Source: Rossellomorea marisflavi (GTDB taxonomy: Bacteria; Bacillota; Bacilli; Bacillales; Bacillaceae_B). From it: a stretch of 64,000 nt of DNA. The notes beneath the pieces are model-generated. The model had not been told where the DNA came from. It did not search any database and saw only the letters and a program-made list of their open reading frames with translations. Made by a program: the position numbers and the translations under genes. Shown here in pieces: positions 3,769 to 58,545 of the stretch (the stretch's first letter is position 1; the number at the start of each line of letters is the position of its first letter). The stretch is taken from positions 422,001 through 486,000 of the forward strand of contig NZ_CP081870.1 in NCBI RefSeq assembly GCF_022170785.1, given 5' to 3'.

Positions 3769-4580
3769 ATGGACCGTTCCTTTTCGCTGCAGGCGCTTGC
3801 TTTCCACGGGGAGGAAATCGAGCCTCCTCCTATTCCGCTGGAGTCAAGCGCCTTCCGCTTCGATACACTCTTTGGTTCTGATTGTGGGATTGGAGGGGGG
3901 ATTGCATCGGATCTTGCGGGTCTTTTTTGAGGATGGAGCTTCCTTTTCCTATTCCTTATGGGTAAGTGATAGAATATGGACCGTTCCTTTTCGCTGCAGG
4001 CGCTTGCTTTCCGCGGGGAGGAGATCGAGCCTCCTCGTGCCTGCGGGGTCTCGCTTCTCCTCCTATTCCGCTGGAGTCAAGCGCCTTCCGCTTCAATGCA
4101 CTCTTTGGTTTTGAATACGGGGATGGAAGGGGGAGGGATCGCATCGTATCAAGCTAGTCGTATAGAGGAAATGGTGCTTTCTGTTCCTATTCTTTATGAG
4201 GAAGCAGTTGAATGGGGACCGTTCCTTTCCGCTACAGGAGCTTGCTTTCCGCGGGGAGGAGATCGAGCCTCCTCGTGCCTGCGGGGTCTCCCTTCTCCTC
4301 CTATTCCGCTGGAGTCAAGCGCCTTTCGCTTCAATGCACTCTTTGGTTCTGGATATGGGATTGGAAGGGGAGGGATTGCATCATGACATCCTGCTGATCG
4401 TATTGAGGATGGTGCTTTCTGTTCCTATCCGTAGTAAGAAAGCAGTCGGAAGGGGTCCGTTTCTTTTCGCTGCAGGCGCTTGCTTTCCGCGGGGAGGCGT
4501 CGAGCCTCCTCGTGCCTGGGGGGTCTCGCTTCTCCTTCTATTCCGCTGGAGTCGATCGTATTTCAATTCACTCTTTTGGT
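3769..4580 (+). repeat. Hairpin-repeat array A (four units)
   Basis: Four direct copies of a GC-rich element have cores at about 3769-3880, 3976-4113, 4212-4350 and 4452-4580. Each runs from CCGTTCCTTTTCGCTGCAGG to TGCACTCTTTGG, with 90-110 bp of AT-richer linker between copies. Units 1 and 2 have perfect terminal arms, GGCGCTTG and CAAGCGCC (unit 2: 3999-4006 and 4078-4085). Unit 3 has one mismatch, and in unit 4 the right arm has decayed. Unit 1 lacks 26 internal bases between short TCCTC repeats. Several open frames cross this region in both directions, but they only follow the repeat and are not credible genes. Confidence 0.9.
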
Positions 4581-4882
4581 TTTGAATTTGGGAGTGGAAG
4601 GGGAATGGATTTCATCGAGCTGTTTATGTATAGGTGAAGGTGCCGCCTTCTTGGTTTGAATGTTTAGGATGTGGCAAGTTGGAGAGCCCCTGCATGGTGC
4701 GGGGGCTTTTGGGTTGGGTGGATTGTTGTTGCTCCTTGGAAGTTTTCTCAGGGTGTAATGTGAGGGTGGGGGAAGGTGTGGGTTATGAGACGAGTCTGGG
4801 GTGAATAGGATAGTGTAGAGTGCAGGTGACGCATCAAGTTATGGAGCTCCGGGTCAGAGCGCGATAAATTCATGCGTCAGCA
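4581..4882. other. Gene-free interval after repeat array A
   Basis: No credible gene. A short hairpin AGCCCC...GGGGCT followed by TTTT (about 4685-4711) could be a weak rightward terminator. The rest is G-rich on the plus strand with no motif I recognise. Confidence 0.4.
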
Positions 4883-5038
4883 TCACTTGTTGTTTCGTTT
4901 GGCCTTTTCGAGGATCTGCTTGGCGAGACGGTAATACGTATCGGCTTCGATCTTGGATTCTGCCCGCTTTAAGTGCATCATATAGTTTTGGAATCGAAGT
5001 TTGTCGACAGACGAGACTTTCATCACGATTTTCCTCAT
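4883..5038 (-). CDS. Microprotein, paralogue of the one at 5540-5698
   Basis: This 51-residue protein is encoded from an ATG preceded by AAAGGAGC. It begins MRKIVMKVSSVDKL. It is charged, has no membrane segment, and its second half is predicted helical (QNYMMHLKRAES, then TYYRLAKQILEKAK). Thirty residues align without gaps to the microprotein at 5540-5698, with 12 identities including Q-x-Y, LK-x-A, YY and QIL-x-K. The function is unknown to me. It is divergent from the small membrane protein at 5140. Confidence 0.6.
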   Translation of the reverse strand: MRKIVMKVSSVDKLRFQNYMMHLKRAESKIEADTYYRLAKQILEKAKRNNK

Positions 5039-5139
5039 TTTCCTGCTCCTTTGATGGACAAAATTGCGTCCAATTGCTTATTCTGAATTTTCTGTAAATA
5101 AAATATAATAATAGTAAATGATTCCAGAGGGTGGATAGA

Positions 5140-5568
5140 ATGTCCATAATCGAAGTGATTCTGTTACCAATGTTGATGGGTGGTATTGGAGGCTTGGGGC
5201 ATATCCTGGTATTCAAGAATGGCCATTTCACTTTCCCACGGAAATTCATCGATGACCAGGGTGAGAAACACTATGTGTTTGGTTCGGTCAAGGACATCAT
5301 CATCGGGGTATTAGCCGGATTCATATCCGTGCTGCCAGTTGTTGATACAGTCCCGGTCTGGTATATCATCTATATCAGTTTATTATCGGGAATCGGGGGA
5401 AGTTCCGTCATCACGCGAAAAATCGAACAAAATCTTGCAGAGACGAAGGCGTCTTATATTCAAGAGCTATCTCATTATCAGCTCGAACTGACCTCTAAGG
5501 GAGGATCTTCAAATCATAATGAGGTGAAACCTGTTGACGATGTGGAAGAACAAAAGAATCAAGGTTGA
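5140..5568 (+). CDS. Small membrane protein (DUF4257-like, tentative)
   Basis: A 142-residue protein starting MSIIEVILLPMLMGGIGGLGH. The ATG at 5140 is preferred over an in-frame GTG at 5131 because AGAGGGTGG lies five bases before the ATG. Hydrophobic segments at about residues 1-24, 50-70 and 78-95 suggest two or three membrane passes with glycine-rich turns (GGIGGLG and GIGGSS). A charged C-terminal tail of about 45 residues follows. Similarity to the DUF4257 family is from memory and unverified. The 3' end overlaps the next gene by 29 bp. Confidence 0.65.
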   Translation: MSIIEVILLPMLMGGIGGLGHILVFKNGHFTFPRKFIDDQGEKHYVFGSVKDIIIGVLAGFISVLPVVDTVPVWYIIYISLLSGIGGSSVITRKIEQNLAETKASYIQELSHYQLELTSKGGSSNHNEVKPVDDVEEQKNQG

Positions 5569-5698
5569 GCTGCCACCCGAGCAGTATGCCAAAGCCCAGC
5601 AGTATCTAGAACGGCTGAAGGAGGCAGATAACCTGGTCGAGCTGAACTACTACTACAAAAAAGTGGCACAAATATTAGGGAAGTCTCAAAATGTGTGA
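5540..5698 (+). CDS. Microprotein, paralogue of the one at 4883-5038
   Basis: A 52-residue protein beginning MWKNKRIKVELPPEQYAK. It overlaps the end of the membrane-protein gene by 29 bp in another frame, which implies translational coupling. GAGGTG lies 13 bases before the ATG, somewhat far. The C-terminal half (QQYLERLKEAD, then LNYYYKKVAQILGK) matches the divergent microprotein at 4883-5038 without gaps. It has no signal peptide or membrane segment. The function is unknown. Conservation of the pattern in two copies is the main evidence that both are real genes. Confidence 0.6.
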   Translation: MWKNKRIKVELPPEQYAKAQQYLERLKEADNLVELNYYYKKVAQILGKSQNV

Positions 5699-5707
5699 GA
5701 ATCAACC

Positions 5708-5733
5708 ACTGACGATGAGTCAGCTTTTTTTCT
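5708..5733 (+). terminator. Short hairpin with T run
   Basis: Stem CTGAC/GTCAG with loop GATGA, followed by CTTTTTTT. The stem is only five pairs, so termination may be weak. Confidence 0.5.
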
Positions 5734-6116
5734 GTACAGGAAAGATGTATCGGGGATACTTCTCTTCTTGACCCATTCACCCTCTGGAGTACCGAAAATC
5801 GGGGTAGCCACGCGCTATTCTTTTTTTTTCGCCTGGACCGGAATGACAGGTGTCGACAAAAATAAATGTAGTGGATGGACATTGTTATGTCAAGGTGTTT
5901 TTACCGTAATTTGGTATGAAGGGTGGGGAAAAGGGTGAGAATATTTTCCTGGACCCCTAGAAAAATAGAGCAGTACTCGAATACTGTCTACATGTGAACA
6001 AAAGTGAACCGGACAATAATAAATCTACCCTTATCTCGCATTTTCTTATATTATATGCTTATAGGCATAATGAGACAATTTATTTCTCGCTATGCCGGCT
6101 GAAGGAGGAACATGTT
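5734..6116. other. Gene-free interval upstream of thioredoxin-like gene
   Basis: No credible coding frame. A leftward frame of about 107 codons at 5559-5882 has no ribosome site and a low-complexity composition, so I reject it. The interval includes a nine-T tract near 5821. The start codon of the next gene is set by its ribosome site at 6102-6108. Confidence 0.4.
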
Positions 6117-6683
6117 ATGGACTTGATGCAGTGGTATCAAAAGGCGATGTCATCGGACGCCTATTTAGAATATATGAAGGAAAACAAAGAACGGACGGCT
6201 TCGATCCTCGAGAAGTTCTCGATCCCTGAAGAGGACCGGGAGTTGCTGGAGCGGATCGGGGAGCATTCCCTTAAAGTGATCGCCATTACAGAAGATTGGT
6301 GCGGAGATGCCATGGTCAATATTCCGATCCTCCTTAAGCTTGCTGAAGCAGCGAATATCGAGGTGAAGATGATTCTGAGGGATGAAAACCTCGAACTCAT
6401 GGATCAGTACCTAACAAATGGGACGTCACGTTCGATTCCGATTTTCATCTTTATTGATGAAGAAGGAAAGGAACGCATGGTTTGGGGACCGAGGGCTCCT
6501 ATGGTGAAGAAAGTCGTAGATGATGAGAACGCCAAACTGCCTCCAAGAGATCATGAGGACTTCCCATTAAGGAAAAAAGAGATGATTCAACGACTGGGGA
6601 ATCTTTACTCAACAGATAGGACCATCTGGCAGGAAGTTTATGATAGCTTGAAAACAAGCCTCGTCCAGAGCATCCTCATGTAA
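6117..6683 (+). CDS. Thioredoxin-family protein with a single active-site Cys
   Basis: A 188-residue protein. The frame is open further upstream, but AAGGAGG lies eight bases before the ATG at 6117. A thioredoxin-like strand and motif, ITEDWCGDAM, lies at residues 57-66, so the usual CxxC is reduced to Cys62-Gly-Asp-Ala. SIPIFIFID provides the cis-Pro-like segment. The C-terminal part is charged and helical. This fits a thioredoxin-fold subfamily (PF14595-like, from memory) in which dithiol chemistry may be absent. It is monocistronic and cytosolic. Confidence 0.8.
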   Translation: MDLMQWYQKAMSSDAYLEYMKENKERTASILEKFSIPEEDRELLERIGEHSLKVIAITEDWCGDAMVNIPILLKLAEAANIEVKMILRDENLELMDQYLTNGTSRSIPIFIFIDEEGKERMVWGPRAPMVKKVVDDENAKLPPRDHEDFPLRKKEMIQRLGNLYSTDRTIWQEVYDSLKTSLVQSILM

Positions 6684-6696
6684 CAAAAAAGATGAC

Positions 6697-6728
6697 AAAA
6701 GGTATGGGAAAACCGTACCTTTTTGTTT
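6697..6728 (+). terminator. Intrinsic terminator
   Basis: AAAGGTATGG pairs with CCGTACCTTT (one G-T pair), followed by TTTTG. Confidence 0.8.
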
Positions 6729-6843
6729 TGGATGCGAATTCATGGGGTAATGGTAATTAGTACCTCATATATTGGTAGTTTTTGCCGGTTCACGAGCACT
6801 GACATTCACGGTAAGATGTTTATGAATGAGGAGTTGAAGCATT

Positions 6844-7224
6844 GTGATCCACCAGAAGACAAATTCAATCGTGATTGAATCACTGAATAAATTTCCCCAT
6901 AAAATTCACATAAAATTGGGAGACATCCTGAAGGAAAGAGGGTTGACACAGGGAGACCTTCACCGTTTGACGGGGTTGCGCGTGGCAACGATCAATGAAT
7001 TGGTCAACTTTAAGAAAAAGTCCCTCACTGTCGCTCATCTTGTTTCCATCATGATCGCCCTCAGGATCACGGATCTGCGGGATCTCATCGAGATTGAATT
7101 CGATGACGAAGTCAAAGCCTATTTCCAACAAGAGAATCAACGAATGAAGAATGGATTCACCCCCGACTTGAACAAAACCGTTGACCGGAACGTGAAGCAG
7201 ATGTCGGAAGGGACCAGGAATTAA
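6844..7224 (+). CDS. XRE-family helix-turn-helix regulator
   Basis: A 126-residue protein. The start is most likely the GTG at 6844, ten bases after GAGGAG. Residues about 23-75 form a Cro/C1-type HTH: KLGDILKERGLTQGDLHRLTG, then LRVATINELVN, and helices ending in DLRDLIEIE. The C-terminal 45 residues are polar and not recognised. Single gene with its own terminator. The target is unknown, and no obvious palindrome lies directly upstream. Confidence 0.75.
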   Translation: MIHQKTNSIVIESLNKFPHKIHIKLGDILKERGLTQGDLHRLTGLRVATINELVNFKKKSLTVAHLVSIMIALRITDLRDLIEIEFDDEVKAYFQQENQRMKNGFTPDLNKTVDRNVKQMSEGTRN

Positions 7225-7246
7225 GCGGCCGGATGGCCGCTTTTTT
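7225..7246 (+). terminator. Intrinsic terminator
   Basis: GCGGCC, loop GGAT, GGCCGC, then six T. Confidence 0.9.
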
Positions 7247-7362
7247 GCTACCGTGAACCTACTGAAACAATTTCGTAATGGGAATCCAGGGGCAAAATCC
7301 TTTATCATGAAGGGAAGGGGTTACTGCCCTGAAGGAAATGATTATGCAGAAAGAGTGATAGG

Positions 7363-8160
7363 ATGGATGCAGTAGCAAGCTATGTGCAATTTTTACATAT
7401 GAAAATAGAAAAGCCGACGCTCAATTATCTCCAGCGCCTCATCGGCCAGCATCTTCTGAAGATCCCTTATGAGACATTCAGTAAATTTCATTATTTCAAT
7501 TCAGGCGAGACGTACGTACCGTCCCTGGACACCTTTGTGGACAATCTCCATTCAAGGGGATGGGGAGGGACGTGTTTCACCTTGAACATCAACTTTGGCA
7601 GGCTTCTGACGCGTCTCGGGTTTGAATGCCGTTTTGTACGTGTCAATCCCGGCCATCTCGGCCTGATGGTCTCCATCGACGGCAGGAAACTATATGTCGA
7701 TGTGGGGTATGGATCCCCCATCATGAAGCCGATCGAGCTTGAGTCCAGACAAAAGCATATCCTCCATGGATTCGGTGAAGAAATCATCTTCTCGAAGAAG
7801 GATCACGTGGAGTTCGAAATCGACAGGCGCTCCAACGGGAAGACCTTCGTGAAAAAAGTGATCGAATGGGTGCCCCTTGATGAGGAAGAGCTTGTACCGG
7901 ACATTGAAGCTTCCTATGCCGATACGGACGATAATGTCACAATGAGGAGGATCACGGCGGTCCGCTTCCAGGGCAATCAATGCTACTTCCTCAGGAACCG
8001 ATCCTTGAAGGTCATGACCTACCGGAATATCCGCGAATATCAAATGAAGGACTTTGAAAAATGGAAGGAAATCATCCAGGAAGTGTATCAATTCGATTCC
8101 TTGGCGCTCCGTGATTCCATCCGATTCCTGGAAGACAGGAAGATCGATCTTTTTCCGTGA
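7363..8160 (+). CDS. Arylamine N-acetyltransferase family protein
   Basis: A 265-residue NAT-family enzyme that would transfer acetyl from acetyl-CoA to aromatic amines or hydrazines through a Cys-His-Asp triad. The triad is visible: Cys71 in RGWGGTCF, His98 in NPGHLGL and Asp113 in YVDVGYG. The order and spacing fit the family. The ribosome site is weak (AGAGTGATAGG). It stands alone. The natural substrate cannot be told from sequence. Confidence 0.88.
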   Translation: MDAVASYVQFLHMKIEKPTLNYLQRLIGQHLLKIPYETFSKFHYFNSGETYVPSLDTFVDNLHSRGWGGTCFTLNINFGRLLTRLGFECRFVRVNPGHLGLMVSIDGRKLYVDVGYGSPIMKPIELESRQKHILHGFGEEIIFSKKDHVEFEIDRRSNGKTFVKKVIEWVPLDEEELVPDIEASYADTDDNVTMRRITAVRFQGNQCYFLRNRSLKVMTYRNIREYQMKDFEKWKEIIQEVYQFDSLALRDSIRFLEDRKIDLFP

Positions 8161-8327
8161 CAATCCTCCACACATTGACAATTCATTAGATTTTTCTTTT
8201 GAAAAGAGGTATGATATTGTGCGTCGGGTCAGATGCCCAAATGAATATTTCGGACGTATATGTGTATGATGGTACTAGTGGGAACGGACAGACTAATGGA
8301 ATTCAAATAAGATTAGGATGATGATGG

Positions 8328-9242
8328 ATGAAACGAGCAAGAATTATATATAATCCTACTTCCGGGAGGGAGCTTTTCAAGAAGCATCTTGCCGAAGTGC
8401 TGATCAAGCTGGAACAGGCAGGTTATGAAACCTCTGTCCATGCAACGATCTGTGAAGGGGATGCGACCAAGGCCGCCCAGATCGCCGTTGAGCGACGTTA
8501 TGATATCGTGGTGGCAGCAGGCGGGGACGGTACGCTCAATGAAGTCGTGAACGGACTTGCCGAACAGGACTACCGGCCTAAGCTTGGGATCGTCCCTATG
8601 GGAACGACAAATGATTTTGCCAGGGCCCTCCATATCCCGAGGGATATTAGCTCTGCCATCGATATCATCACGAAGGGCGAGTCCATACCGGTCGATATCG
8701 GTCGTATGAATGATCGCTACTTCATTAATATCGCAGGCGGCGGAAGGATCACGGAGCTTACATATGAAGTGCCGAGCAAGCTGAAGACGATGATCGGACA
8801 GCTTGCCTATTACTTGAAAGGCATCGAAATGCTCCCTTCCATCAAGCCGACCGATGTATCGATCGAGTATGACGGGAAGCTATTCGAAGGCGAAGCGATG
8901 CTGTTTTTGATCGGTCTGACGAATTCAGTCGGCGGGTTCGAAAAGCTTGCCCCTGATGCGTCCATCAATGATGGATTATTCTCTTTGTTGATCCTGAAAA
9001 AGACCAATCTGGCAGAATTCATCCGGATTGCTTCCATGGCCCTCCGAGGGGATCATGTCAAGGATCCGCATGTGATTTATACGCAGGCCAATCGTATCAA
9101 GATCAAGGCAAAGGAAAAGGTACAGCTGAACGTAGACGGCGAGCTCGGTGGAGTGCTTCCTGCCGAATTCGAGAATCTTTACCGTCATCTCCAGGTGTTT
9201 GTCCCATTGGATAAGATCCGCCCGGAAGACAAGGCACTGTGA
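8328..9242 (+). CDS. dgkB: Diacylglycerol kinase
   Basis: A 304-residue lipid kinase of the DAGK catalytic family, phosphorylating diacylglycerol released during lipoteichoic acid synthesis back into phosphatidic acid. It shows the N-terminal nucleotide-binding start RARIIYNPTSGR and the GGDGTLNEVVNG motif at about residues 66-77, followed by PMGTTNDFARAL. Length matches Bacillus DgkB (about 303). Several ATGs precede the start, but only the one at 8328 is in frame. It sits close upstream of rlmCD, as in B. subtilis, separated here by three small genes. Confidence 0.94.
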   Translation: MKRARIIYNPTSGRELFKKHLAEVLIKLEQAGYETSVHATICEGDATKAAQIAVERRYDIVVAAGGDGTLNEVVNGLAEQDYRPKLGIVPMGTTNDFARALHIPRDISSAIDIITKGESIPVDIGRMNDRYFINIAGGGRITELTYEVPSKLKTMIGQLAYYLKGIEMLPSIKPTDVSIEYDGKLFEGEAMLFLIGLTNSVGGFEKLAPDASINDGLFSLLILKKTNLAEFIRIASMALRGDHVKDPHVIYTQANRIKIKAKEKVQLNVDGELGGVLPAEFENLYRHLQVFVPLDKIRPEDKAL

Positions 9243-15941: not shown

Positions 15942-18680
15942 ATGACAGAAGAAAAACTGCTAATGGAAAAAACATTCCATGAAACATTCACAGGGGACAT
16001 CGGAAGGAATCTTCATCCCATCGAGGTCCTGGGTGCTGCCTTCGTCGAAGAACAGAAGAATGAGCCTTATGACCTGACCGATATCCGTTTTGCACAAGGG
16101 GAAGTCTACTTCCACTGCAAGGATTATGAAGCGGCCATCTTTAAGTGGGAAAACGTACAGAACGAGCGTGAGCCTTGGGCAAAGAAGAATATTGCCGATG
16201 CTTATTATGAGCTCGGGATGCTTTCTTCCGCCGAAGATGTATATACGGCCATCCAAACCGAAGGAGTCGTACTGACGATGGAGGTATCCCTGCAATTATT
16301 CTCCCTTTATATTGAACGGGAGAAGATTCAGGAAGCATACCGTGTCATCGAGAAGGCACTCGGCATCGATCCGGACTATCCAAATGTCTCCTCGATCGCC
16401 CGTGCATTCTACGAGGGCCAGCAGGATTGGAATAATGCCATCGAGCTTGCAGTGAGGGAAGCGCTCCGCACGAAGGACGGCAAATGGTTTTCCGTTCTAG
16501 AGGAATACGCGGTCAAAGGGTATACCACATCGTTTGCCCCTGCGTACTTCCACGACCTCCTCATCGCTTCCTATGAGAGCGATTCAAGGCAGTTCCGGGG
16601 ACTTGTCGCAGCGTTCTGGAACAGCTACAAGGTGGAACCTGCACTGCATATCGAGTGGATGCAGACGATCAATACCATTTTTGAATACGTGCAGATCGAG
16701 AACCATGAATCGTGGGATGATATCCTTTCCCTTTATAAGGAATCCTTCAACGGCTTCATGGAGAGCGGTCATCTGATCCATGATCTGCAGCCCTTCATGC
16801 CCGGTCTTGTGACAAACTGGCTCAAAGTGAGCCGTGCGGGATCGTCCTTGCTTGCGGCTTCTGCCGTGCTTGCATGGAACGATGTGTTCTCATATTCCCT
16901 TGAGCCTGGGGTTGCGGAAGAAGCCGAGGCGCTGCTCATCGAGTCGGCAGAAGATGCCCGCTTCGAGGATGTCCTCCTCTTCCTTAACCGGATCATGGCT
17001 TGGTCCGAATCGAATCGTGTACCTGTAGGCTATAAGACAAAATGGATCTCCGAGCAGCTGATGGATTATAGCAGGAACCATATCGTCGTCGCAGGAAGTG
17101 TTTCAAGCGGGAAGTCTTCCTTCGTGCAGTCTGTCCTCGGTGAGAGTATCGGGGAATCAGAAGGCTCGACGGTGGTCTACACCTATCATGATCAGCCTGT
17201 CGAAGTAAGTGAAATCCATGGAGAAGGCGTTCGCCGCGTGGAGAGCATCGCTGATTTTGAAGAGGTGATGCACAGGGAAGCGTTTGTTGAGTACAAGATC
17301 CCTTCAGACTTCCTGAAGAAAAACAGTGCCGTCCTTATTGATGTCCAGGCCGGACAAAGGCATCAGGATGATCTTGCTTCGTTCTATCCTGTGGCAGACG
17401 GTCTGCTGTATGTACTGAATGCCGAGGCGCCGTTCAATGCAGAGGATCGTCAAGTGCTGCGCAGGCTGCAGGAAATCGATCAGCCCGTCAAGATCAACTT
17501 CCTGTTGAATAAAATGGATAAGGTGGGAGTACATCCGGATGATGTGATCGAATCCGTGGAACGGAAGGCGAAGGAGTGGTTCCCAGAAGCGGAAGTGCTG
17601 CCGTATTCGTCCCTTGAGGCCGTTTCCATCCAGCGTACAGGTGTAGAAGCATTCATGACCCGCCATTATGATATGAGTCCTGCGTATATCAAAGCAGAGA
17701 GAGGGACGAAGCTCTTCTACCTCGTGCGTAAAACCTTGAAGGATCTGTATTCGATCCGTAAGAATAAAGAAATCGCCTTGAAAGAAAGTATTGCGAAAAA
17801 TGAAGACATCCTGTCACGACTGAGTGGATTCCACAATCATCTCGGTGATATGCAGGGAGAGAAGATCGCCCTGATCAAAGATTCCTTCCACGAGCGCAAA
17901 GAAGCGGTCAAAAAGGAAATCAGGACGGAAATCCCGAATATCCTGCATAAATGCTCCGAGCTGATCAACGAGGAAAGTGACTATAAGAATATCCATACCG
18001 AGCTCAATGAAGCGATGAATACAAGGATACAGGAATATCTCCAGAACGACCTCATGCCGAGATACCTCGATTCCCTTCAGGAATGGCTGGCAGCTTCGAA
18101 GCATGAACTGCAGGAAAGCCAGGAGTATCTCTACGAAATGAGTTCGACCTTCAATGGTCTGTTCGGGGAAGAGCGCGTCGTCCTTCAATGTGATGATCAG
18201 GTGCTCGACGACTGGAGACGGGATGTAAGCCGCATGGGGACGAGGGCACAGATCGATAAGGAGAATATCCTCCTCCGCTTCAAGCCTGCCCAGTTCCTGT
18301 TGAAGAGTGCCGGGAAGCTCTTGGGCGTGCTGCCTCAGAACAAGACGCTGCTATATAATCAGTACAAACGATACCTGGAGAATGAGGACTACGGGGATAT
18401 TACAGAATCCGTAGTGACGAAATTCTTCCTACAGTTCGATCTATTCGAGAAATCGTTGGAACAGGATATCCGCTCCTTCTATGCACAACCTTTCCACCAG
18501 CTCTCTTTGACCATCAAAGGGACAGAAGGGGAAATCATGGAGGACAAGGAACTTCTGAGTGAAATAAAGGCGGATCCCGAAAGATATTTCGACCCGATCA
18601 CATTATTCGAAGTGAAACTTCTGCAATATGAATATATGATGAAGGCAAGCTATCAGCCTTCTCAAAAGTATTCTCGATAA
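15942..18680 (+). CDS. TPR-dynamin-family large GTPase
   Basis: A 912-residue protein. Residues about 30-180 hold TPR-like helical repeats (FHCKDYEAAIFKWENV and ADAYYELGMLSSAEDVYTAI). A middle helical region follows, then a dynamin-type GTPase domain. Its P-loop is GSVSSGKSS at residues 385-393, its G3-like motif DVQAGQ, and its NKMD G4 motif lies near residue 525. The C-terminal 300 residues are charged and helical with coiled-coil character, as in stalks of bacterial dynamins. No transmembrane helix is obvious. CGGAGG precedes the ATG. A membrane-remodelling or stress role is typical of the family but unproven here. Confidence 0.8.
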   Translation: MTEEKLLMEKTFHETFTGDIGRNLHPIEVLGAAFVEEQKNEPYDLTDIRFAQGEVYFHCKDYEAAIFKWENVQNEREPWAKKNIADAYYELGMLSSAEDVYTAIQTEGVVLTMEVSLQLFSLYIEREKIQEAYRVIEKALGIDPDYPNVSSIARAFYEGQQDWNNAIELAVREALRTKDGKWFSVLEEYAVKGYTTSFAPAYFHDLLIASYESDSRQFRGLVAAFWNSYKVEPALHIEWMQTINTIFEYVQIENHESWDDILSLYKESFNGFMESGHLIHDLQPFMPGLVTNWLKVSRAGSSLLAASAVLAWNDVFSYSLEPGVAEEAEALLIESAEDARFEDVLLFLNRIMAWSESNRVPVGYKTKWISEQLMDYSRNHIVVAGSVSSGKSSFVQSVLGESIGESEGSTVVYTYHDQPVEVSEIHGEGVRRVESIADFEEVMHREAFVEYKIPSDFLKKNSAVLIDVQAGQRHQDDLASFYPVADGLLYVLNAEAPFNAEDRQVLRRLQEIDQPVKINFLLNKMDKVGVHPDDVIESVERKAKEWFPEAEVLPYSSLEAVSIQRTGVEAFMTRHYDMSPAYIKAERGTKLFYLVRKTLKDLYSIRKNKEIALKESIAKNEDILSRLSGFHNHLGDMQGEKIALIKDSFHERKEAVKKEIRTEIPNILHKCSELINEESDYKNIHTELNEAMNTRIQEYLQNDLMPRYLDSLQEWLAASKHELQESQEYLYEMSSTFNGLFGEERVVLQCDDQVLDDWRRDVSRMGTRAQIDKENILLRFKPAQFLLKSAGKLLGVLPQNKTLLYNQYKRYLENEDYGDITESVVTKFFLQFDLFEKSLEQDIRSFYAQPFHQLSLTIKGTEGEIMEDKELLSEIKADPERYFDPITLFEVKLLQYEYMMKASYQPSQKYSR

Positions 18681-18711
18681 AAAAGTGTGACGAACGTGTT
18701 TTAGTCATAGT

Positions 18712-18762
18712 AAAACCCGAATTTATTTGCCGGCGATAAGGCAAATGAATTCGGGTTTTTAA
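18712..18762 (+). terminator. Intrinsic terminator of the GTPase gene
   Basis: AAACCCGAATT and AATTCGGGTTTTT enclose an inner TTTGCC/GGCAAA hairpin. Confidence 0.85.
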
Positions 18763-18808
18763 GTTATGTAAGAACATGACATTTCACTGTCTCCAGCGGT
18801 TGATTGGA

Positions 18809-18908
18809 GTGCAAGACGTAGACTCCTGCGGGAAGAGTAGCTGATGTGAGACCCCGCAGGCTTGCCGAGGAGGCTCACGGGCTACCCGCGGAAAGCGAAG
18901 TCTTGCAC
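18809..18908 (-). repeat. Single inverted copy of the hairpin repeat (copy B)
   Basis: Reverse-orientation member of the family seen at 3.8, 42.4 and 57.9 kb. Terminal arms GTGCAAGAC (18809-18817) and GTCTTGCAC (18900-18908) are perfectly complementary and unlike the arms at the other loci. Internal blocks ACTCCTGCGGG, GAGACCCCGCAGG, GAGGAGGCTCACG and CCCGCGGAAAGC match. Confidence 0.88.
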
Positions 18909-18985
18909 GGAAATCATGAGCGGTATTAAAAACCTACACTGCTATTGTTCGTCATTGTATGATCACTTTTGTCCTACCCTCTTTT

Positions 18986-19828
18986 TTATGTGGCAAAGAT
19001 GGACGTCATGATCCGTTTCAGTGAATTCTCCGTGCGCACTTCCGAGAAGTCCAGTCCAAGATGGATCGCTGTCTGGGCCACTTCGGGGCGGATCCCGGTC
19101 ATGATCGATTTCACGCCGAGAAGGTTGAGGGCATCCACCAGATGGAACAGTTGCTGTGCGACCATCGTGTCGATGAGAAGGACACCGGAAAGATCGATGA
19201 TCAGGGTGGAGAGCTGAGATTGTGAGCTCTGCTGAAGCGTTCCTTCCAGTATGCTCCTTGCCCTGGCTGTATCGATATCGCCAATGAGGGGAAGGAGGCC
19301 GATTTCATCTGTCAAGGAGATGACGGGCGAGCTCAATTCATTGATGAGATCAGACTGGGCTTGAAGCCTGTCCATGATATAGGTCAAATAATGGGAAGTG
19401 AAGCGTTCAAGTACGTAGTCTAGTGAGCTGTTCAGTTGTTCTTCCCAATGGAAGACTTCAGCAACACCGATTTCAAGACCGGACTCGTTGACGAATTTTT
19501 TGACGAAGTTCCAATAGACTCTCCTGAAGACGGCTGAATTCCTTACCACTTCATCAAGGGTGGTGGTAGAGCGGCTGCGATCGGCAGCCGTTTTCTTCGT
19601 CCACTCATCAATCGCTTCCTTCATCTCTTCTTCTGGGCGGATCAGGCATTTGGCCAAGAGCCTGGCGTAAGTCGCATTCTGCTCTTTAACCCGCTCCTGT
19701 ACATCCTGGGGTGCCTCGGCGGAATAATGGGAGCCGTACTTCACGCGTTGGCGGGCGGCCCATTCCTCAGTGAAGTGATAGGCATTTTCGTTCAGATACT
19801 CATATAGTGCTAGTGAATGTGTCGTCAT
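18986..19828 (-). CDS. RsbR-type stressosome co-antagonist (STAS domain)
   Basis: A 280-residue protein. The N-terminal half is helical and divergent, as in the non-haem globin sensor domains of RsbR paralogues. The C-terminal STAS domain (about 165-275) has SSPVISLTDEIGLLPLIGD, which carries the first phosphorylatable Thr region, and LIIDLSGVLLIDTMVAQQL with the second. Expected to sit in the stressosome with RsbS/RsbT and tune sigma-B. Length matches RsbRD (YqhA). AAGGAGAG precedes the ATG. RsbS, RsbT and RsbU are not adjacent. Confidence 0.88.
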   Translation of the reverse strand: MTTHSLALYEYLNENAYHFTEEWAARQRVKYGSHYSAEAPQDVQERVKEQNATYARLLAKCLIRPEEEMKEAIDEWTKKTAADRSRSTTTLDEVVRNSAVFRRVYWNFVKKFVNESGLEIGVAEVFHWEEQLNSSLDYVLERFTSHYLTYIMDRLQAQSDLINELSSPVISLTDEIGLLPLIGDIDTARARSILEGTLQQSSQSQLSTLIIDLSGVLLIDTMVAQQLFHLVDALNLLGVKSIMTGIRPEVAQTAIHLGLDFSEVRTENSLKRIMTSIFAT

Positions 19829-23833: not shown

Positions 23834-23889
23834 TTTTGCCCTTTTCCCGCTCTTCCGTTATAATGGACAGGTAATCAATTTCATAAACG

Positions 23890-23983
23890 TAACCACAAGG
23901 GGAGCCTTTTTGCTGAGAGTGAACGGTTGATCCGTTCTGACCCTTTGAACCTGTTAGTTAGCACTAGCGTAGGGATGTGGAAG
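23890..23983 (+). promoter_or_regulatory. TPP riboswitch (THI element)
   Basis: Conserved thi-box segments occur in order: AAGGGGAGCC, GCTGAGAG, GACCCTTTGAACCTG, TTAGTTAG, and GCGTAGGGA followed by GTGG closing P1 with CCAC. It lies about 70 bp upstream of thiT and should repress it when thiamine pyrophosphate is bound. Confidence 0.95.
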
Positions 23984-24053
23984 GTAGTTTTCTGCCTTGT
24001 TGTACATACATTCTCCCTAATGGTTTCGTTCATAGAAAAGGGGGATTTTTTTT

Positions 24054-30867: not shown

Positions 30868-31168
30868 ATCGGAGTAGGCGGTCATCCCGACCGGTCTGCT
30901 CCCACGCTCTCTATTATGGAGAAAAGCGTGCATGTAACTTGCAACATCACAAGTGAATATAGTTGATTTCCTATACGTTTAAGATAATTTAAACAGCCGC
31001 GGGCAATTCTTCTTAGTCGCTTGATCTACCTAAACGACGTAAGCCCTACCTCTCTTACATCCTAACGGCTCCGAAGCCGATCCAGTGTGAATAAGTTGTT
31101 TTTGTCAAACAACTGGAGAATTACAGATTATCTTCTCTATCGTTCGAAAGTATGTTACAAGTCTACAA
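30828..31168 (-). ncRNA. Predicted structured non-coding RNA, unassigned
   Basis: A consensus promoter at 31175-31203 points leftward and a strong terminator lies at 30827-30867, defining a transcript of about 340 nt. There is no credible coding frame (one ATG is followed at once by TAA; others are under 25 codons). Predicted hairpins in order include CGGCT/AGCCG, GTAAG/CTTAC, GTCG/CGAC, GTTTAA/TTAAAC, CACGCT/AGCGTG and CGGTC/GACCG inside GGAG/CTCC. The 5' segment CTTGTAACAT can pair with ATGTTGCAAG about 200 nt downstream. It does not look like tmRNA, RNase P, SRP or 6S RNA as I know them. Confidence 0.55.
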
Positions 31169-42138: not shown

Positions 42139-42280
42139 TTGTAATTACCACCCTTTGTGTATGTTGTATGGTTATAATGTACCCGTTTCGCATGGAGATA
42201 AACCCCTTTTTTGCTGTGTGGGAGTGGGGGCGGCTTGTCAGAGTTGCTTATCCTTTTCATTTCTTTTGTGGTAAGGTGGC

Positions 42281-43029
42281 GTTTCGTTCCGCTGCACTCT
42301 GTGCGTATGAGTAGGGGTTTGCTGATTTGGAGCGGGGAATTGCCATCCTGTATTTTTATGAGTGTGTGGTGGTTAAGAGACCGTTCCGTTCCGCTACGGC
42401 CTCCCGCTTTCCATGGGCGTGCGGTGAGCCGCTTCGGCGTTGCCTGCAGGGTCTCACCCTGCCCGCTATTCCCATAGGAGTCGGGAGGCCTTCGCTGCAC
42501 TGCACTCTGAGTGGAGGAGAGGGGGTGTGCGGTTTGGAAACATGCTAACACCATCCAATTTTTTGTGAGTATGTAGAGGAGAAGAGCCCGTTCCGTTCCG
42601 CTGCGACCTCCCGCTTTCTATGGGGCGTGCGGTGAGCCGCTTCGGCGTTGCCTGCAGGGTCTCACCCTGCCCGCTATTCCCATAGGAGTCGGGAGGCCTT
42701 CGCTGCACTGCACTCTGAGTGGAGGAGAGGGGGTGTGCGGTTTGGAAACATGCTAACACCATCCAATTTTTTGTGAGTATGTAGAGGAGAAGAGCCCGTT
42801 CCGTTCCGCTGCGACCTCCCGCTTTCCATGGGGCGTGCGATGAGCCGCTTCGGCTGCGCCTGCAGGGTCTCACCTTGCCCGCTATTCCCATAGGAGTCGG
42901 GAGGCCTCCGCTGCACTGCACTTTGTGCGAAGGAGAGGGATGTACTAGTTCTGAATAGGGGATCGGCACCCAGTTTTTCAATGAATGTTTGGTTGGGAAG
43001 AGACCGTTCCGTTTGCTACACTTTGTACT
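42281..43029 (+). repeat. Hairpin-repeat array C
   Basis: Full units have cores at 42379-42510, 42586-42717 and 42795-42925. Units 1 and 2 share a 207-208 bp period with near-identical unit and linker over about 185 bp, a recent tandem duplication. Terminal arms GGCCTCCCG (42398-42406) and CGGGAGGCC (42482-42490) pair perfectly. Two short copies, at 42281-42305 (GTTTCGTTCCGCTGCACTCT) and 43003-43029, keep the outer head and tail but lack the hairpin module. Long leftward open frames through here are repeat artefacts. Confidence 0.9.
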
Positions 43030-43100: not shown

Positions 43101-43229
43101 GCACTGAGTGGATTGGAGCGGAAGGGATTTGACTCCTGCGGAAAAGGGGGATGATCGAGACCCCGCAGGCACGAGGAGGCTCGACATGCTCCCCGCGGAA
43201 AGCAAATCCCTGCAGCGCAAAGGAACGGA
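43101..43229 (-). repeat. Single inverted copy of the hairpin repeat (copy E)
   Basis: Reverse-orientation member with arms GGGATTTG (43124-43131) and CAAATCCC (43203-43210), perfectly complementary and different from array C next to it. Internal blocks ACTCCTGCGG, GAGACCCCGCAGG, GAGGAGGCTCGA and CCCCGCGGAAAGC match the family. Confidence 0.88.
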
Positions 43230-43328
43230 CTACCTTTCCACCACAGCCTTCACTAAGAACTATGAGGCCATTAATTCTAATTGCACCTGGGTGATATATT
43301 TCGAAGGCGCGGGCTGACCCGACATATT

Positions 43329-43480
43329 CCCTGCGGAAAGTACCCCTGAAGCGCAAAGGAACGGTCTTGTTTCCAACTTACCCTTCATTTAGGAAGATAT
43401 TGTCTTCAGCTATCATCATAACCATGATGTTTATTATTATTTCACCACAGAAATCAAATCTCTGAAAGCGGAAAGGAACG
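43329..43480 (-). repeat. Decayed hairpin-repeat fragments
   Basis: Two partial reverse copies: CCCTGCGGAAAG followed by GAAGCGCAAAGGAACGG (about 43329-43364), and a shorter remnant with GAAAGCGGAAAGGAACG (about 43456-43472). No gene is visible between 43030 and 43605. Confidence 0.6.
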
Positions 43481-48250: not shown

Positions 48251-48505
48251 AAAAAAAATCGCCCCTACATAATTGTAGGGACGATTGGATATCGCGGTAC
48301 CACCCTAGTTATGGGACAAGCCCATCACTCTTCGGAAATAACGGCATACACCGTCTTTTGATCTCGTCAAAAGAAGCTCTGGAATCGAAATTCACTTACC
48401 GCATGTGTACCGATTTGCACCAACCATCGGCTCTCTTTAACAGGGAAGGGTTCGCTACTAGGTTCCTTCAAAGCTTTTCGTTATTTAGGTTATACAATTT
48501 TTATC
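48251..48505 (-). promoter_or_regulatory. T-box leader of the NSS transporter gene
   Basis: Read leftward from about 48505: a stem I with AGTA and AAAGAGAGCC, the distal motif GGTTGGTGCAAA, then a specifier-side strand GTGAATTTCGATTCC. The universal T-box sequence AGGGTGGTACCGCG is at 48306-48293, and a terminator TCGTCCCTACA/TGTAGGGGCGA with eight T lies at 48284-48251. The likely specifier is UUC (Phe), by analogy with GAA-N-codon placement; UUU or AUU are not excluded. TTGACA at 48527-48522 is the probable -35 box. Confidence 0.92.
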
Positions 48506-53382: not shown

Positions 53383-53765
53383 AGCGAAACGGAATACTCA
53401 ATAGTGAAATCGCCAAAGTACTGGCCGACCTGGGGCATACCGATACAATCGTCATCGCTGATGCAGGGCTCCCCATTCCCCCTCATGTGAAGAAGATCGA
53501 CCTGGCATTAAAAGGAGGGGTTCCATCCTTCCTTGATGTGGTGGATATTCTCATGGACGAGATGGTGGTGGAGCGACTGACAGCTGCCAGCGAGCTGGAA
53601 CAGAATCCCCAAGTTCATCAGGGACTGCAAAAGCGCTTTGAACAAATCGAATACACGTCTCACGAAGAGTTGAAGCATCAGCTCCAATCGGCAAGGGCCG
53701 TCATACGCACAGGTGAAATCACCCCGTATGCCAACTGCATCCTGCATGCCGGTGTAACGTTCTAA
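53379..53765 (+). CDS. rbsD: D-ribose pyranase
   Basis: A 128-residue enzyme interconverting the beta-pyranose and beta-furanose forms of ribose so that ribokinase can use it. Hallmarks: [28 protein letters not shown] and a C-terminal [17 protein letters not shown]. The ATG overlaps the rbsK stop (ATGA), and the gene sits in standard rbsRKDACB order. Confidence 0.95.
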
Positions 53766-53779
53766 AAGGAGGGAATCAC

Positions 53780-55270
53780 ATGGAAATCCGCATGGATCAT
53801 ATTCATAAAGCCTTCGGTCAAAATAAGGTACTGGAAGGAGTGGACATCCATATCCGTGGTGGGGAAGTCCACGCATTGATGGGGGAGAATGGAGCAGGGA
53901 AGTCCACCCTCATGAACATTTTGACGGGCCTTCATAAGAAAGATCAGGGTACCATCACCATCGACGGGGTGGAAAAGACCTTTGATAATCCAAAACAGGC
54001 AGAAGAGTTCGGCATAGCCTTCATCCACCAAGAATTGAATATCTGGCCTGAGATGACGGTGCTCGACAACCTCTTCATCAATAAAGAACCGATTACGTCA
54101 TTCGGGCTCATTCAAACCCAAAAAATGAAAGCGGTTGCTAAGAAGCAATTCGATCGCCTCGCCATCTCCATCCCTCTTCATAAGGAAGCGGGGAAGTGCT
54201 CGGTGGGTGAGCAGCAGATGATTGAGATCGCCAAGGCACTGATGACCGACGCGAAAGTGATTATCATGGATGAACCGACCGCAGCGCTCACGGATAGGGA
54301 AATCGAGAAGCTCTTCGATGTAATCCGTTCCCTAAAGGAGTCGGGCGTCTCTATCGTATATATTTCTCACCGGATGGAAGAAATCTTCACCATCTGCGAC
54401 ACCATCACCGTCATGCGAGATGGGCGGACGGTAGACACGACCCCGATTCCTGAAACGAACTTCAACGACGTAGTCAGAAAAATGGTCGGCAGGGAATTGA
54501 CCGATCGATTCCCGGAGAGAAACAGTAACCCCGGGGCAACCATCCTGGAAGTCAAAGGGCTGACGCGAAAAGGTGTGTTTGAAAACGTCAGTTTCCAAGT
54601 TAGGGAAGGGGAAATCGTCGGGGTGTCGGGACTGATGGGTGCCGGACGCACAGAAATCATGCGTACCATTTTCGGTCTTGATGGCAAATACGAAGGGGAC
54701 ATCCTGGTGGCTGGTAAAAATGTTACCGTCAAGAACCCGAATCAAGCGGTGGAACTCGGACTTGGCTTCATCACAGAGGATCGGAAAGAAGAGGGTCTCA
54801 TCCTTGATTTCTCCATCAAGGATAACATCGTCCTCCCGAGTCTCTTCAGTTTCACCAAGAACGGGATGATCAAGGACAAACAGGAGGAAGAATTCGTCGA
54901 ACTCCTGATCAAACGTCTGACAATCAAAACAGAATCCGCCATGACCTCCGCGAAGAACCTCTCCGGTGGGAACCAGCAGAAGGTCGTCATCGCCAAGTGG
55001 ATCGGGATCGGTCCGAAAGTTCTCATCCTGGATGAACCGACAAGGGGAGTCGATGTGGGAGCGAAGCGGGAAATCTACCAGCTCATGAATGAACTGACGG
55101 ACCGAGGAGTCGCCATCATCATGGTCTCATCAGAACTTCCTGAAGTACTGGGAATGAGTGATCGGGTGATCGTCATTCACGAGGGCAGGGTGTCAGGTGA
55201 AGTAACAGGTAAAGATGCAACGCAGGAAAAAATTATGACGCTGGCAACAGGAGGTCAGATCAATGAATAA
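53780..55270 (+). CDS. rbsA: Ribose ABC transporter, ATP-binding protein
   Basis: A 496-residue double ATPase. The first domain has [24 protein letters not shown] and [11 protein letters not shown]. The second has a degenerate P-loop ([10 protein letters not shown]), [14 protein letters not shown] and [13 protein letters not shown]. This asymmetry is normal for sugar importers of this class. AAAGGAGGG precedes the ATG. It overlaps rbsC by eight bases. Confidence 0.96.
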
Positions 55271-56219
55271 CACACTCAATCGAACCAATCACGTAGGAAG
55301 CTTCATGCAGAAGCTCGGACCATTCTTGGGACTGCTCGTCCTGATCGTGACCGTTTCCATCATTAATCCTAGTTTCCTTGAACCTTTGAACTTATTGAAT
55401 CTTTTACGTCAAGTGGCGATCAACGCTTTGATTGCATATGGAATGACCTTCGTGATCCTGACAGGAGGAATCGATCTTTCCGTCGGGTCCATACTCGCAC
55501 TCTCAAGCGCACTGATGGCAGGGATGATGGTATCCGGTCTCGATCCGATCCTGGCCGTCCTCATCGGATGTATTCTTGGGGCCATCATGGGAGCAGTCAA
55601 TGGCCTTCTCATCACCAAAGGGAAGATGGCTCCGTTCATCGCTACCCTGGCAACAATGACCATGTTCCGCGGATTGACCCTGGTTTACACAGACGGGAAT
55701 CCGATCACGGGTCTTGGAGACAACTATGCCTTCCAACTGTTCGGAAGAGGCTATTTCCTCGGAATCCCAGTACCGGCCATCACCATGTTGCTGGCATTCG
55801 CCATTCTCTGGGTGATCCTTCACAAGACTCCGTTCGGACGTAAGACATATGCCATCGGAGGCAATGAAAAAGCAGCCCTTATTTCAGGTATCAAAGTATC
55901 AAGAGTGAAAATCATGATCTATTCACTCGCCGGCTTGCTTGCCGCACTGGCAGGGGCCATCCTCACGTCACGGTTGAACTCCGCCCAGCCGACAGCAGGG
56001 ACATCTTATGAGCTTGACGCCATTGCGGCCGTCGTGCTTGGAGGAACATCCCTATCAGGTGGACGCGGGTTGATTGTCGGTACACTGATCGGTGCCCTGA
56101 TCATCGGGACGCTGAATAACGGACTAAACCTACTCGGCGTATCATCCTTCTTCCAAATGGTCGTGAAGGGGATCGTCATCATCATCGCCGTATTAATTGA
56201 TCGAAAGAAAGCAGCATAG
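55263..56219 (+). CDS. rbsC: Ribose ABC transporter, permease
   Basis: A 318-residue permease with about eight to ten membrane segments. It has the family segments [28 protein letters not shown] and [19 protein letters not shown], and the loop [13 protein letters not shown] that contacts RbsA. It starts inside the rbsA end and precedes rbsB by 10 bp. Confidence 0.96.
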
Positions 56220-56229
56220 GAGGTTCCAC

Positions 56230-57153
56230 ATGAAAAAACTGATTGTACTTATGATGAGTATCTCCCTCGTATTCCTGGCAGCATGTTCCCTTCAGCCGCC
56301 TGAATGGGCGAAGCCCAGTGGCAAAAAGGATCCGAAAGATCTGAAGATCGGTCTATCCGTTTCGACCTTGAATAACCCGTTCTTCGTCTCCATCAAAGAA
56401 GGGGTCCAGAAAGAAGCAAAGGCGCAGGGCATGAAAGTCATCGTCGTCGATGCCCAGAACGATGCAGCCAAGCAGATCAATGACGTGGAAGATTTGATTC
56501 AACAAGGCGTCGATCTTCTTCTCATTAACCCGACAGATTCATCGGCCATCTCTACAGCCGTACAGTCTGCCAACAGCATCGGAATTCCAGTCGTCACCCT
56601 TGACCGTTCAGCAGATAAAGGCGACGTGGCGACCCTCGTCAGTTCTGATAATGAAAAGGGCGGGGAAATGGCCGCCGACTATCTAATCAAAGAATTGGGT
56701 GAAGGAACAAAAGTGGCCGAACTCGAAGGGGTACCTGGAGCATCCGCTACCCGTGAACGGGGAGCAGGCTTCCATAACCTTGCTGACGACAAGCTTGACG
56801 TAACCGCGAAGCAGACTGCCAACTTCGACCGGACCCAAGGACTCAATACGATGGAAAACATCCTACAGGGTAATCCGGATATCAAGGCGGTCTTCGCCCA
56901 TAATGATGAAATGGCCCTCGGTGCCCAACAGGCGATCCAGAGCTCAGGAAGGGATGTACTCGTCGTTGGATTCGACGGAAATGAAGATGCCCTGAAGAGC
57001 ATTGAAGAAGGGAACCTGTCAGCTACCGTCGCTCAACAGCCGGAAGAGATCGGCAAGCTCGCCGTGCAGGCAGGAGCCGATGTGTTGAATGGGAAAAAGG
57101 TTGACAAAATGATTCCCGTTCCTTTGAAATTAGTCACAAAAGACAAAGAGTGA
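56230..57153 (+). CDS. rbsB: Ribose-binding lipoprotein
   Basis: A 307-residue substrate-binding protein. A lipoprotein signal peptide has lipobox LAAC with lipid-modified Cys19. The mature domain has KIGLSVSTLNNPFFVSIKEG and VVTLDRSADKGDVATLVSSDN, typical of ribose-binding proteins. The frame is open 11 codons upstream, but AGGAGGTT precedes the ATG at 56230. Last gene of the operon. Confidence 0.96.
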   Translation: MKKLIVLMMSISLVFLAACSLQPPEWAKPSGKKDPKDLKIGLSVSTLNNPFFVSIKEGVQKEAKAQGMKVIVVDAQNDAAKQINDVEDLIQQGVDLLLINPTDSSAISTAVQSANSIGIPVVTLDRSADKGDVATLVSSDNEKGGEMAADYLIKELGEGTKVAELEGVPGASATRERGAGFHNLADDKLDVTAKQTANFDRTQGLNTMENILQGNPDIKAVFAHNDEMALGAQQAIQSSGRDVLVVGFDGNEDALKSIEEGNLSATVAQQPEEIGKLAVQAGADVLNGKKVDKMIPVPLKLVTKDKE

Positions 57154-57159
57154 ATGAAC

Positions 57160-57199
57160 AAAAAATGCCCCGACGGTCATCCCGTCGGGGCATTTTTTT
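57160..57199 (+). terminator. Intrinsic terminator of the rbs operon
   Basis: ATGCCCCGACGG, loop TCAT, CCGTCGGGGCAT, then seven T. The A run on the left also makes it usable by the leftward gene. Confidence 0.93.
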
Positions 57200-57215
57200 G
57201 TCTGATGTGTATACA

Positions 57216-57824
57216 TCAGGCCCTATCATGAAGGTGGATACTATGGCTGGCAAGGAGGCGGTCCCTAAAATCCCTGCTGACGCGTCTTGAGTCATAGGCG
57301 CACACTGAGAGGAGATTCTCTTCTGCGACGATGACATCCGCCTGTTCTTCTGAGTGGAGGAGCTTGCTCACTTCGCTTTCGTCCCTCCATTCGATATGTG
57401 CCCAGGTTCTATAACGCATTTCGGGGTCGAATTCGCCTTTGAACAGGGTGGGAAGAAGATCCGGGATGGAGTTGATCCGAAAGTCTCCGTGTGCATAGTA
57501 GAATTCGTAATTATTGAGAAACCTGACCTGGTCGAGTTCAGGTGCTGTCAGTTTTTGAGCTAACTTAAGAACGATCATAGGAGCCATCCGGTCGCTTTCG
57601 ACGATGATGGTGCATTCGTTTTGACGAAGTCCGGCGATGACATAGTCCACAACGTTGGAAACGTATTGTTCCTGATTGGTGAAGAAGTATGCGACGTGCC
57701 CTTTGGTAAGGCTGCGGAGGTCCGAGACCTCTTGTACTTCGATTTGCTTCAATTTTGCACCCCATTTGGTTTGTGAGACGTATTCCGTCAATGTTGTGGC
57801 GTCCCGTTTAGTTAAGTGTAACAC
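57216..57824 (-). CDS. MEDS-domain protein
   Basis: A 202-residue stand-alone MEDS (DcmR-type sensory) domain: GHVAYFFTNQEQYVSNVVDYVIAGLRQNECTI near residue 42, and a central NNYEFYYAHGDFRI. Such domains are found with two-component or anti-sigma systems and are thought to bind a ligand, but here there is no attached output domain. The start is uncertain: GTG at 57824 has no clear ribosome site, and a downstream TTG is possible. Confidence 0.7.
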   Translation of the reverse strand: MLHLTKRDATTLTEYVSQTKWGAKLKQIEVQEVSDLRSLTKGHVAYFFTNQEQYVSNVVDYVIAGLRQNECTIIVESDRMAPMIVLKLAQKLTAPELDQVRFLNNYEFYYAHGDFRINSIPDLLPTLFKGEFDPEMRYRTWAHIEWRDESEVSKLLHSEEQADVIVAEENLLSVCAYDSRRVSRDFRDRLLASHSIHLHDRA

Positions 57825-57930
57825 AAAATATATTTGGAAAAGTAGGTTTGTGGAAATTATTGAAAATAAGTTTGGTTTATATTAATCCGGTTTACTAGAT
57901 AGTTGGAAAAGGATTGTAGTGAGAGTGGTT

Positions 57931-58545
57931 CGTTCCGTTCCGCTGCGTGTGGCCGCTTTCCACGGGGCTTGCGGTGAGCCTCCTCATTCTTGCGGGGTCT
58001 CACCCTGCGCGCTATTCCCGTAGGAGTCGTCCACCCTCCGCTGCACTGCACTCTGCGGTGAAGAGTGGTGAGGTGAAAACATGATTTGCCTCAGCATAAG
58101 GATGGTGGTGATGGTGACAAATACGTTCCTACTAGGGGGATAGCAGTGGAAGTGGTTCGTTCCGTTCCGCTGCGTGTGGCCGCTTTCCACGGGGCTTGCG
58201 ATGAGCCTCCTCATTTTTGCGGGGTCTCACCCTGCGCGCTATTCCCGTAGGAGTCGTCCACCCTCCGCTGTACTGCACTCTGCGGTGAAGAGGGCGAGGT
58301 AAAAACGTGATCTTACCCAGCATATGGTGGTGATGGTGACAAATCCGATCCTGCTCTTTTATTTGGAGGGGGATAGCGGTGGTAGTGGTTCGTTCCGTTG
58401 CGCTGCACTCTGCGTTGAAGAGTGGTGGGGTGGAAATGTGATCTGCCTCATCAAATAGATGGTGGTGATGGTGCCAAATCGGTTCCTACTCTTTTATTTG
58501 GAGGGGATAGCAGTGGGAGTGGTTCGTCCCGTTTTGCTACACATA
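57931..58545 (+). repeat. Hairpin-repeat array D
   Basis: Two full units start at 57931 and 58158 (period 227 bp). Arms GTGGCCG (57949-57955) and CGTCCAC (58028-58034) pair with one mismatch. Two short copies, at 58391-58417 and 58525-58545, keep the CGTTCCGTT-type head joined to the tail GCTGCACTCTGCG (or a diverged form) and share the linker sequences, but lack about 103 bp of hairpin module. Leftward frames here are repeat artefacts. Nothing else is visible from 57825 to 58657. Confidence 0.9.

Follow-up and report, generated by a model that had tools for sequence, protein, structure and literature searches.

In PMC3116915 and PMC2817692, doublets of REP sequences are described as forming hairpins that are mobilised by RAYT transposases (Y1, HUH), and PMC3733652 gives a size of 20-40 bp for the REP palindrome. 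The stem-loop family Bhal-1 of Bacillus halodurans, with 36 copies of 74 bp, was presented as previously undescribed in PMC2267715, and bcr1 is called Bacillus cereus group-specific in the title of a paper cited in PMC2267715 and PMC3733652. Here we analysed a hairpin element that recurs at five sites in a 64,000-nucleotide stretch of the Rossellomorea marisflavi genome (contig NZ_CP081870.1, positions 422,001 to 486,000), which is called the window in the following. We find that the element is genuine, abundant and widespread, and that its structure is under constraint, most likely at the level of DNA. We give an even chance to the reading that it is a non-autonomous DNA repeat family of the REP/BIME kind, widespread in the Bacillales sampled, that spreads as folded DNA.

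The element resembles the REP/BIME/REPIN systems as described in PMC3116915 and PMC2817692, which are high-copy extragenic palindromes with inverted doublets, mosaic arrays and compensatory hairpin changes. It has 163 matches in its own genome, none of the first 150 copies overlaps a called gene by more than 30 nt, and it forms 18 opposed pairs there and 20 in other genera, though many copies are single or tandem. Unlike the REP systems, it has a head of about 125 nt and not a short palindrome, its opposed partners are of unlike types and stand nearly always tail to tail, and the Y1 gene of its own genome is not flanked by it. Because it behaves like REP/BIME but departs from them in size and in the cognate RAYT, we file it as a variant of these families. 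From bcr1, which is reportedly a hairpin-forming Bacillus intergenic repeat of mobile character, it is set apart by description only, as it spans 63 of the 83 genera sampled. The likeness to Bhal-1, a stem-loop repeat in a Bacillaceae genome, is likewise one of description only (PMC2267715). A search by topic in open-licence papers (titles, starts of abstracts and some passages) gave no name for the family, and the literal string TTTCCGCGGG was found in this literature only in papers unrelated by title.

The original prediction held that the helices of the element covary between the five sites and that something acts on the folded form. To follow this up, a covariance model was built from ten window copies, and a second one was used across genera; the first has 33 pairs in 121 positions and the second 32 in 124. 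The own genome comprises 4.31 Mb in two contigs, the main one starting with what we take to be a dnaA-like gene. The ten-copy model found 163 matches at an expectation value (E) of 0.01 or below in 76 fetched stretches of this genome, and all 150 candidates that were scored out of 2505 first-look candidates matched with E between 8e-34 and 4e-10. The best 150 of the 163 matches formed alignment A3. In its 148 distinct rows, 93.4% of the cells of 32 pairs were paired, 19 pairs had changed on both sides, and the covariation score was 0.377 vs 0.142 in shuffled and at most 0.094 in slid alignments, nulls that are not tree-based. Since A3 was fitted to the model, these counts are biased towards structure, and the slid control leaves this bias in place. 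Among 42 rows less than 88% alike, the pair 20-126 was CG in 25, GC in 7, TA in 5, AT in 4 and TT in 1, and an additional outer helix joined columns 7-8 with 144-145.

Applied across many genera, the second model gave an alignment of 147 matches at 98 loci. In 56 rows less than 80% alike, Watson-Crick pairs filled 1412 of the 1703 counted cells; several columns of the outer arm (23-29) are plainly misaligned. Conservation also extended to unpaired bases, namely the CTTTCC / GGAGTC side loop and the T bulge in GGTCTC, and the CT/T loop mismatch was kept. The covariation of several helices seen from five sites was thus found again genome-wide and across genera, and these larger sets exclude descent of subfamilies better than the five sites alone could.

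RNA under selection tolerates G-U pairs far more than A-C pairs. Counting pairs whose commonest state is Watson-Crick, we found in the varying pairs of the own genome 24 G-U and 16 A-C (p 0.27), the pairs 28-119, 40-97 and 61-79, which are mostly G-T, and the weak pair 15-137 being outside this count. The cross-genus set had 41 G-U vs 65 A-C, or 40 vs 37 without two mis-registered columns. As a control, 49 tRNAs of the own genome showed 51 G-U vs 8 A-C. Because G-U was not preferred over A-C in the varying pairs, unlike in tRNA, the fold seems to be kept as DNA. When folded as RNA, the antisense consensus reached -40.4 kcal/mol vs -35.3 kcal/mol for the sense strand, and the sense strand was lower in 12 of 42 rows. 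None of the copies matched any of 4227 Rfam families at the gathering score, one scan giving sub-gathering matches only. The several covarying helices, the conserved unpaired bases and the three pairs that are mostly G-T on the sense strand are what one would expect of a structured RNA, such as a small RNA, a stabiliser in the 3' untranslated region or an attenuator, with the transcript as the selected form. Given the lack of a G-U excess, the better antisense fold and the lack of an Rfam match, we regard such an RNA as quite unlikely. The transcribed form that had been considered for the element therefore did not find support, and our results suggest, as support and not as proof, that the folded DNA and not an RNA copy is what is maintained.

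How the arms change was followed in pairs of copies. In 11 pairs less than 3% apart outside the helices, the outer arm showed 8 single and no compensated changes. With growing distance, the compensated share climbed from 0 to 0.38, 0.64, 0.69 and 0.78, while the single rate stayed at about 0.1. Since the closest copies show single changes only and the compensated share grows with divergence, this looks like stepwise compensation and not like copying in one event. Some copies only 3-4% apart outside the helices carry three or four compensated arm pairs; the arm sequence is therefore free and the pairing is the constraint. The arms evolve faster than the unpaired columns, yet they remain paired. 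The copy pairs are not independent, so these figures are descriptive. A passive process, in which one arm is overwritten from the other by template switching or gene conversion and no selection acts on the fold, would also let the fold behave as DNA. Hairpin-linked deletions were found, and at three loci (L094, L095, L101) the arrays have mismatched or mixed arms, the left one of one kind and the right one of another, as if units had recombined; both would fit such a process. The single changes in the closest copies, the mismatches and bulges (CT/T loop, T bulge) that persist unerased, and arms that outpace the unpaired columns and still pair all argue against it, and we consider it unlikely.

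In the window, all five sites and the arms quoted for them are present: array A, a B-type unit, array C with the opposed copy E, and array D. The units are as follows.

3775 to 3868, + strand: array A unit 1, of type I and lacking its apex by deletion; model match of 80.4 bits (L038:1594-1687).
3982 to 4101, + strand: array A unit 2, type I hairpin with arms GGCGCTTG/CAAGCGCC; 137.5 bits.
4220 to 4339, + strand: array A unit 3, type I; 130 bits.
4458 to 4576, + strand: array A unit 4, type I, with a broken 3' arm; 108.1 bits.
18683 to 18987, - strand: B-type unit of about 305 bp between two converging stop codons, outer limits approximate; imperfect ends, a central hairpin and then a CCCGAATT..AATTCGGG hairpin.
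18799 to 18919, - strand: copy B, the core hairpin, with arms GTGCAAGAC/GTCTTGCAC; 84 bits.
42280 to 42303, + strand: array C hairpin-less unit with fused ends, GCTGCACTCTG; found by the junction pattern.
42382 to 42505, + strand: array C unit 1 (C1), type II, arms GGCCTCCCG/CGGGAGGCC; 121.3 bits.
42589 to 42713, + strand: array C unit 2 (C2), type II; 127.1 bits.
42797 to 42921, + strand: array C unit 3 (C3), type II; 131.4 bits.
43005 to 43026, + strand: array C terminal hairpin-less unit; found by the junction pattern.
43108 to 43227, - strand: copy E, of type I with arms GGGATTTG/CAAATCCC, its tail facing that of array C; 129.5 bits.
57931 to 58051, + strand: array D unit 1, of type II, whose arms GTGGCCG/CGTCCAC contain one mismatch; 128.9 bits.
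58158 to 58278, + strand: array D unit 2, type II; 128.5 bits.
58391 to 58414, + strand: array D hairpin-less unit with the GCTGCACTCTG junction; found by the junction pattern.

The arrays were all located where they had been described, with some corrections. Array A has four units, of which the first is without its apex and the last has a broken 3' arm. Array C consists of three full and two hairpin-less units, and array D of two full units and one or more without the hairpin; the units at 42280, 43005 and 58391 had been missed. The arm GGCCTCCCG, given for array C as a whole, is found in C1 only, whereas C2 and C3 carry GACCTCCCG against CGGGAGGCC with one mismatch. Copy B does share the core hairpin, but it is embedded in a unit of about 305 bp with ends of its own. 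An extra degenerate copy was found by eye near 43300-43363 on the - strand. Elsewhere in the window, Rfam matches were obtained for BsrC (31025-31110), a TPP riboswitch (23888-23992) and a T-box leader (48274-48480).

Because the array-type and the B-type settings share the core hairpin, the five window sites represent one hairpin in two carriers. Among the first 150 own-genome copies, none of which overlapped a gene called by a crude gene caller by more than 30 nt, 124 are of the array type, with the ends CGTTCCKTTYCGCT...GCAC. They are single or tandem, and on the same strand the gap from one head to the start of the next is mostly 67-165 bp. The other carrier, the B type (26 copies), is a single unit of about 305 bp with the array-type core hairpin in its middle, followed by the CCCGAATT hairpin. 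Its terminal inverted repeats, read by eye in a 26-row alignment, are approximately AAAGAGGYTGGGACAA/TTGTCCCAGCCTCTTT; they are imperfect, and degenerate in the window copy, where the unit occupies the space between converging open reading frame (ORF) ends at 18680 and 18986. The B-type unit is like a miniature inverted-repeat transposable element (MITE) in being dispersed and non-coding with imperfect inverted ends and internal hairpins. REP sequences carry a GTAG or CGTC tag at one end; in an informal reading of the alignments, the feet of the present element read CGTTCC or GTTGATT.

It had been asked whether the copies favour gene 3' ends. This applies to the B type, where a gene 3' end faces the 3' side of the hairpin within 150 nt in 19 of 24 purely B-type loci (crude gene calls), and not to the array type, whose 19 one-orientation loci between co-directional genes comprise 8 sense and 11 antisense. 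For the structured RNA discussed above, the B-type position would be favourable, whereas the array copies in both orientations to genes speak against it. In a genome of another family (G155, L340-L369), 30 loci were examined out of 68 matches; 16 were antisense and 5 sense between co-directional genes, and most of the 30 copies were single and type I-like with nearly identical ends. A replication-strand bias (7 of 26 B-type copies on the leading strand, p 0.03; 80 of 124 array-type copies, p 0.002) was set aside because the two types point in opposite ways and follow gene direction, and because the array copies are not independent.

The orientation of neighbouring copies follows a simple pattern. 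Array neighbours less than 700 bp apart in the own genome were ++ in 31 cases, -- in 22, +- in 18 and -+ in none, and in other genera the counts were 4, 5, 20 and 1. Opposed neighbours of both sets together were tail to tail in 38 cases vs 1. Same-strand neighbours are near-identical copies, and every such pair in the own genome is of one subtype (A17-T129 or G17-C129). Opposed own pairs joined both subtypes in 15 of 18 cases (chance 0.40, p 3e-4), and their identity was 0.74 or less in 18/18, whereas 41% of 7618 inter-locus pairs exceeded 0.74 (p ~1e-4). By eye, the homology of five related dispersed type I copies ends about 8 nt before CGTTCC and extends about 70-80 nt past the 3' end; the unit therefore consists of a head followed by a 3' tail, and in opposed units the tails face each other. 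An origin of new copies on the tail side only would yield the observed arrangement, and an avoidance of long palindromes would explain the unlike opposed partners.

The suspicion that similar repeats occur in other Bacillaceae was well founded, as the covariance-model search found the family widely. At the level of the order, matches were obtained in 110 of the 150 genomes, belonging to 63 of the 83 genera; strict filters were used and at most 23 copies were scored per genome, so that the copy numbers are floors. The named matches, among those listed, fall in Bacillaceae-like genera and a few others, e.g. Planococcus. One congener (G001) had 112 matches, and a genome of another family (G028) had at least 116, every scored candidate. 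Among 50,697 phage records, neither of two queries gave a match, and two queries matched 1 and 5 of 72,556 plasmid records. On two Priestia megaterium plasmids, NZ_CP069400 (L400) and NZ_CP069405 (L401), small hypothetical proteins annotated across the element are probably spurious, and the 5-kb Brochothrix plasmid NZ_OR354882 has a 54-base part-like stretch at 1223-1276 (L402) near a predicted qac gene.

Y1 transposases were present in 125 of the 150 order genomes. Among the 20 of the 25 Y1-less genomes that were listed, in which the absence may reflect gene loss or an assembly gap, 11 have the element, 10 of these with at least 13 scored copies. Given these genomes, a RAYT as the necessary mover was rejected. 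The own genome has one Y1 (RAYT-like) transposase gene (G000:C1:3594172-3594726, L140), which presumably sits between flagellar-like and hpf-like genes and is followed downstream by about nine tandem GGTGCCAGGYACAAAA repeats. The 3.3-kb locus contains no element, the best model score there being 5.9 bits. That the element is autonomous, its gene lying between two opposed copies, was also rejected, as the ORFs in six such stretches (one without an ORF of 70 aa) were judged from their first residues, not by a family search, to be host genes.

Gain and loss were examined at orthologous sites. No match was found within about 1.5 kb of gatB in 18/18 congeners, so array A is absent there; after the gatB terminator, congeners (loci L283, L284, L286, L290) have another palindrome family, approximately GAGGGACGGACCTTGA..TCAAGGTCCGTCCCTC. 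One orthologous site was compared between genomes: G007 and an R. vietnamensis record have the element there, and in G015 a scar is left whose junction is a 4-bp CGCT repeat. In the own arrays, five hairpin-less units share the junction GCTNCACTYTG, which the search pattern itself had fixed; a looser pattern brought up no other kind in these arrays and only picked up the right-hand end of each of two full copies. Another candidate, that the element inserts into the loop of a GTTGATT..AATCAAC palindrome already in place, was rejected, with no match at own loci and two poor ones elsewhere.

If the element were a chromosomal DNA site that serves the host, e.g. as a barrier or in nucleoid or replication-related functions, and were multiplied by tandem duplication, an almost strict tail-to-tail arrangement and a bias in position would be in its favour. 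The 52 own array loci are indeed closer to the origin than a uniform distribution (Kolmogorov-Smirnov p 1.4e-4), a bias seen in one genome and in the list of scored copies only; the 26 B-type copies showed no such closeness (p 0.27). The distribution is patchy, however, with 40 of the 150 order genomes without a match under the strict filters, between 14 and 112 matches per congener (at most 116 were scored) and array A missing beside gatB in all 18 congeners, and we rank this explanation last, as improbable.

We return to the reading of a REP/BIME-like repeat that spreads as folded DNA. Its unit is an imperfect DNA hairpin head of about 125 nt with a 3' tail of roughly 70-110 nt. When extruded or single-stranded, the unit would fold and spread, and an enzyme recognising the conserved unpaired bases (the CTTTCC / GGAGTC loop and the GGTCTC T bulge) might duplicate it, every new copy being set down on the tail side of an existing one. 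Inverted pairs that are alike would be purged as long palindromes, so that the opposed neighbours that persist differ. In the B-type unit, this hairpin is carried by a MITE-like element that lies, in most cases, close to where a converging gene ends. A bolder form, a class of repeats selected for DNA structure, with hypervariable self-complementary arms, hairpin-guided and tail-directed duplication without Y1/HUH and a divergence of opposed partners that averts self-destruction, is in our opinion doubtful, though conceivable.

Several points weigh against the proposed spreading as folded DNA. Growth on the tail side is deduced from the arrangement of the copies alone. No mobilising enzyme was identified, and the own Y1 gene has no element beside it. 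When the four left-out pairs are included, the own-genome count becomes 135 G-U vs 20 A-C, which would favour a sense RNA. Folded as single-stranded DNA, eight window copies had z values from -3.9 (array A unit 2) to -0.7 (array D unit 1), and five of the eight were above -2; folding energy alone is weaker evidence for the element than covariation. Finally, no insertion with a target duplication was seen, and the sole candidate gain (L227 vs L226) is imprecise.

The copies of the family make up a large natural data set, and here the constraint seems to act on pairing of DNA rather than of RNA. The family is abundant in many genomes of the order and is without an Rfam entry. The tail-to-tail rule and the unlike opposed partners are sharp and testable patterns for the making and purging of hairpin repeats.

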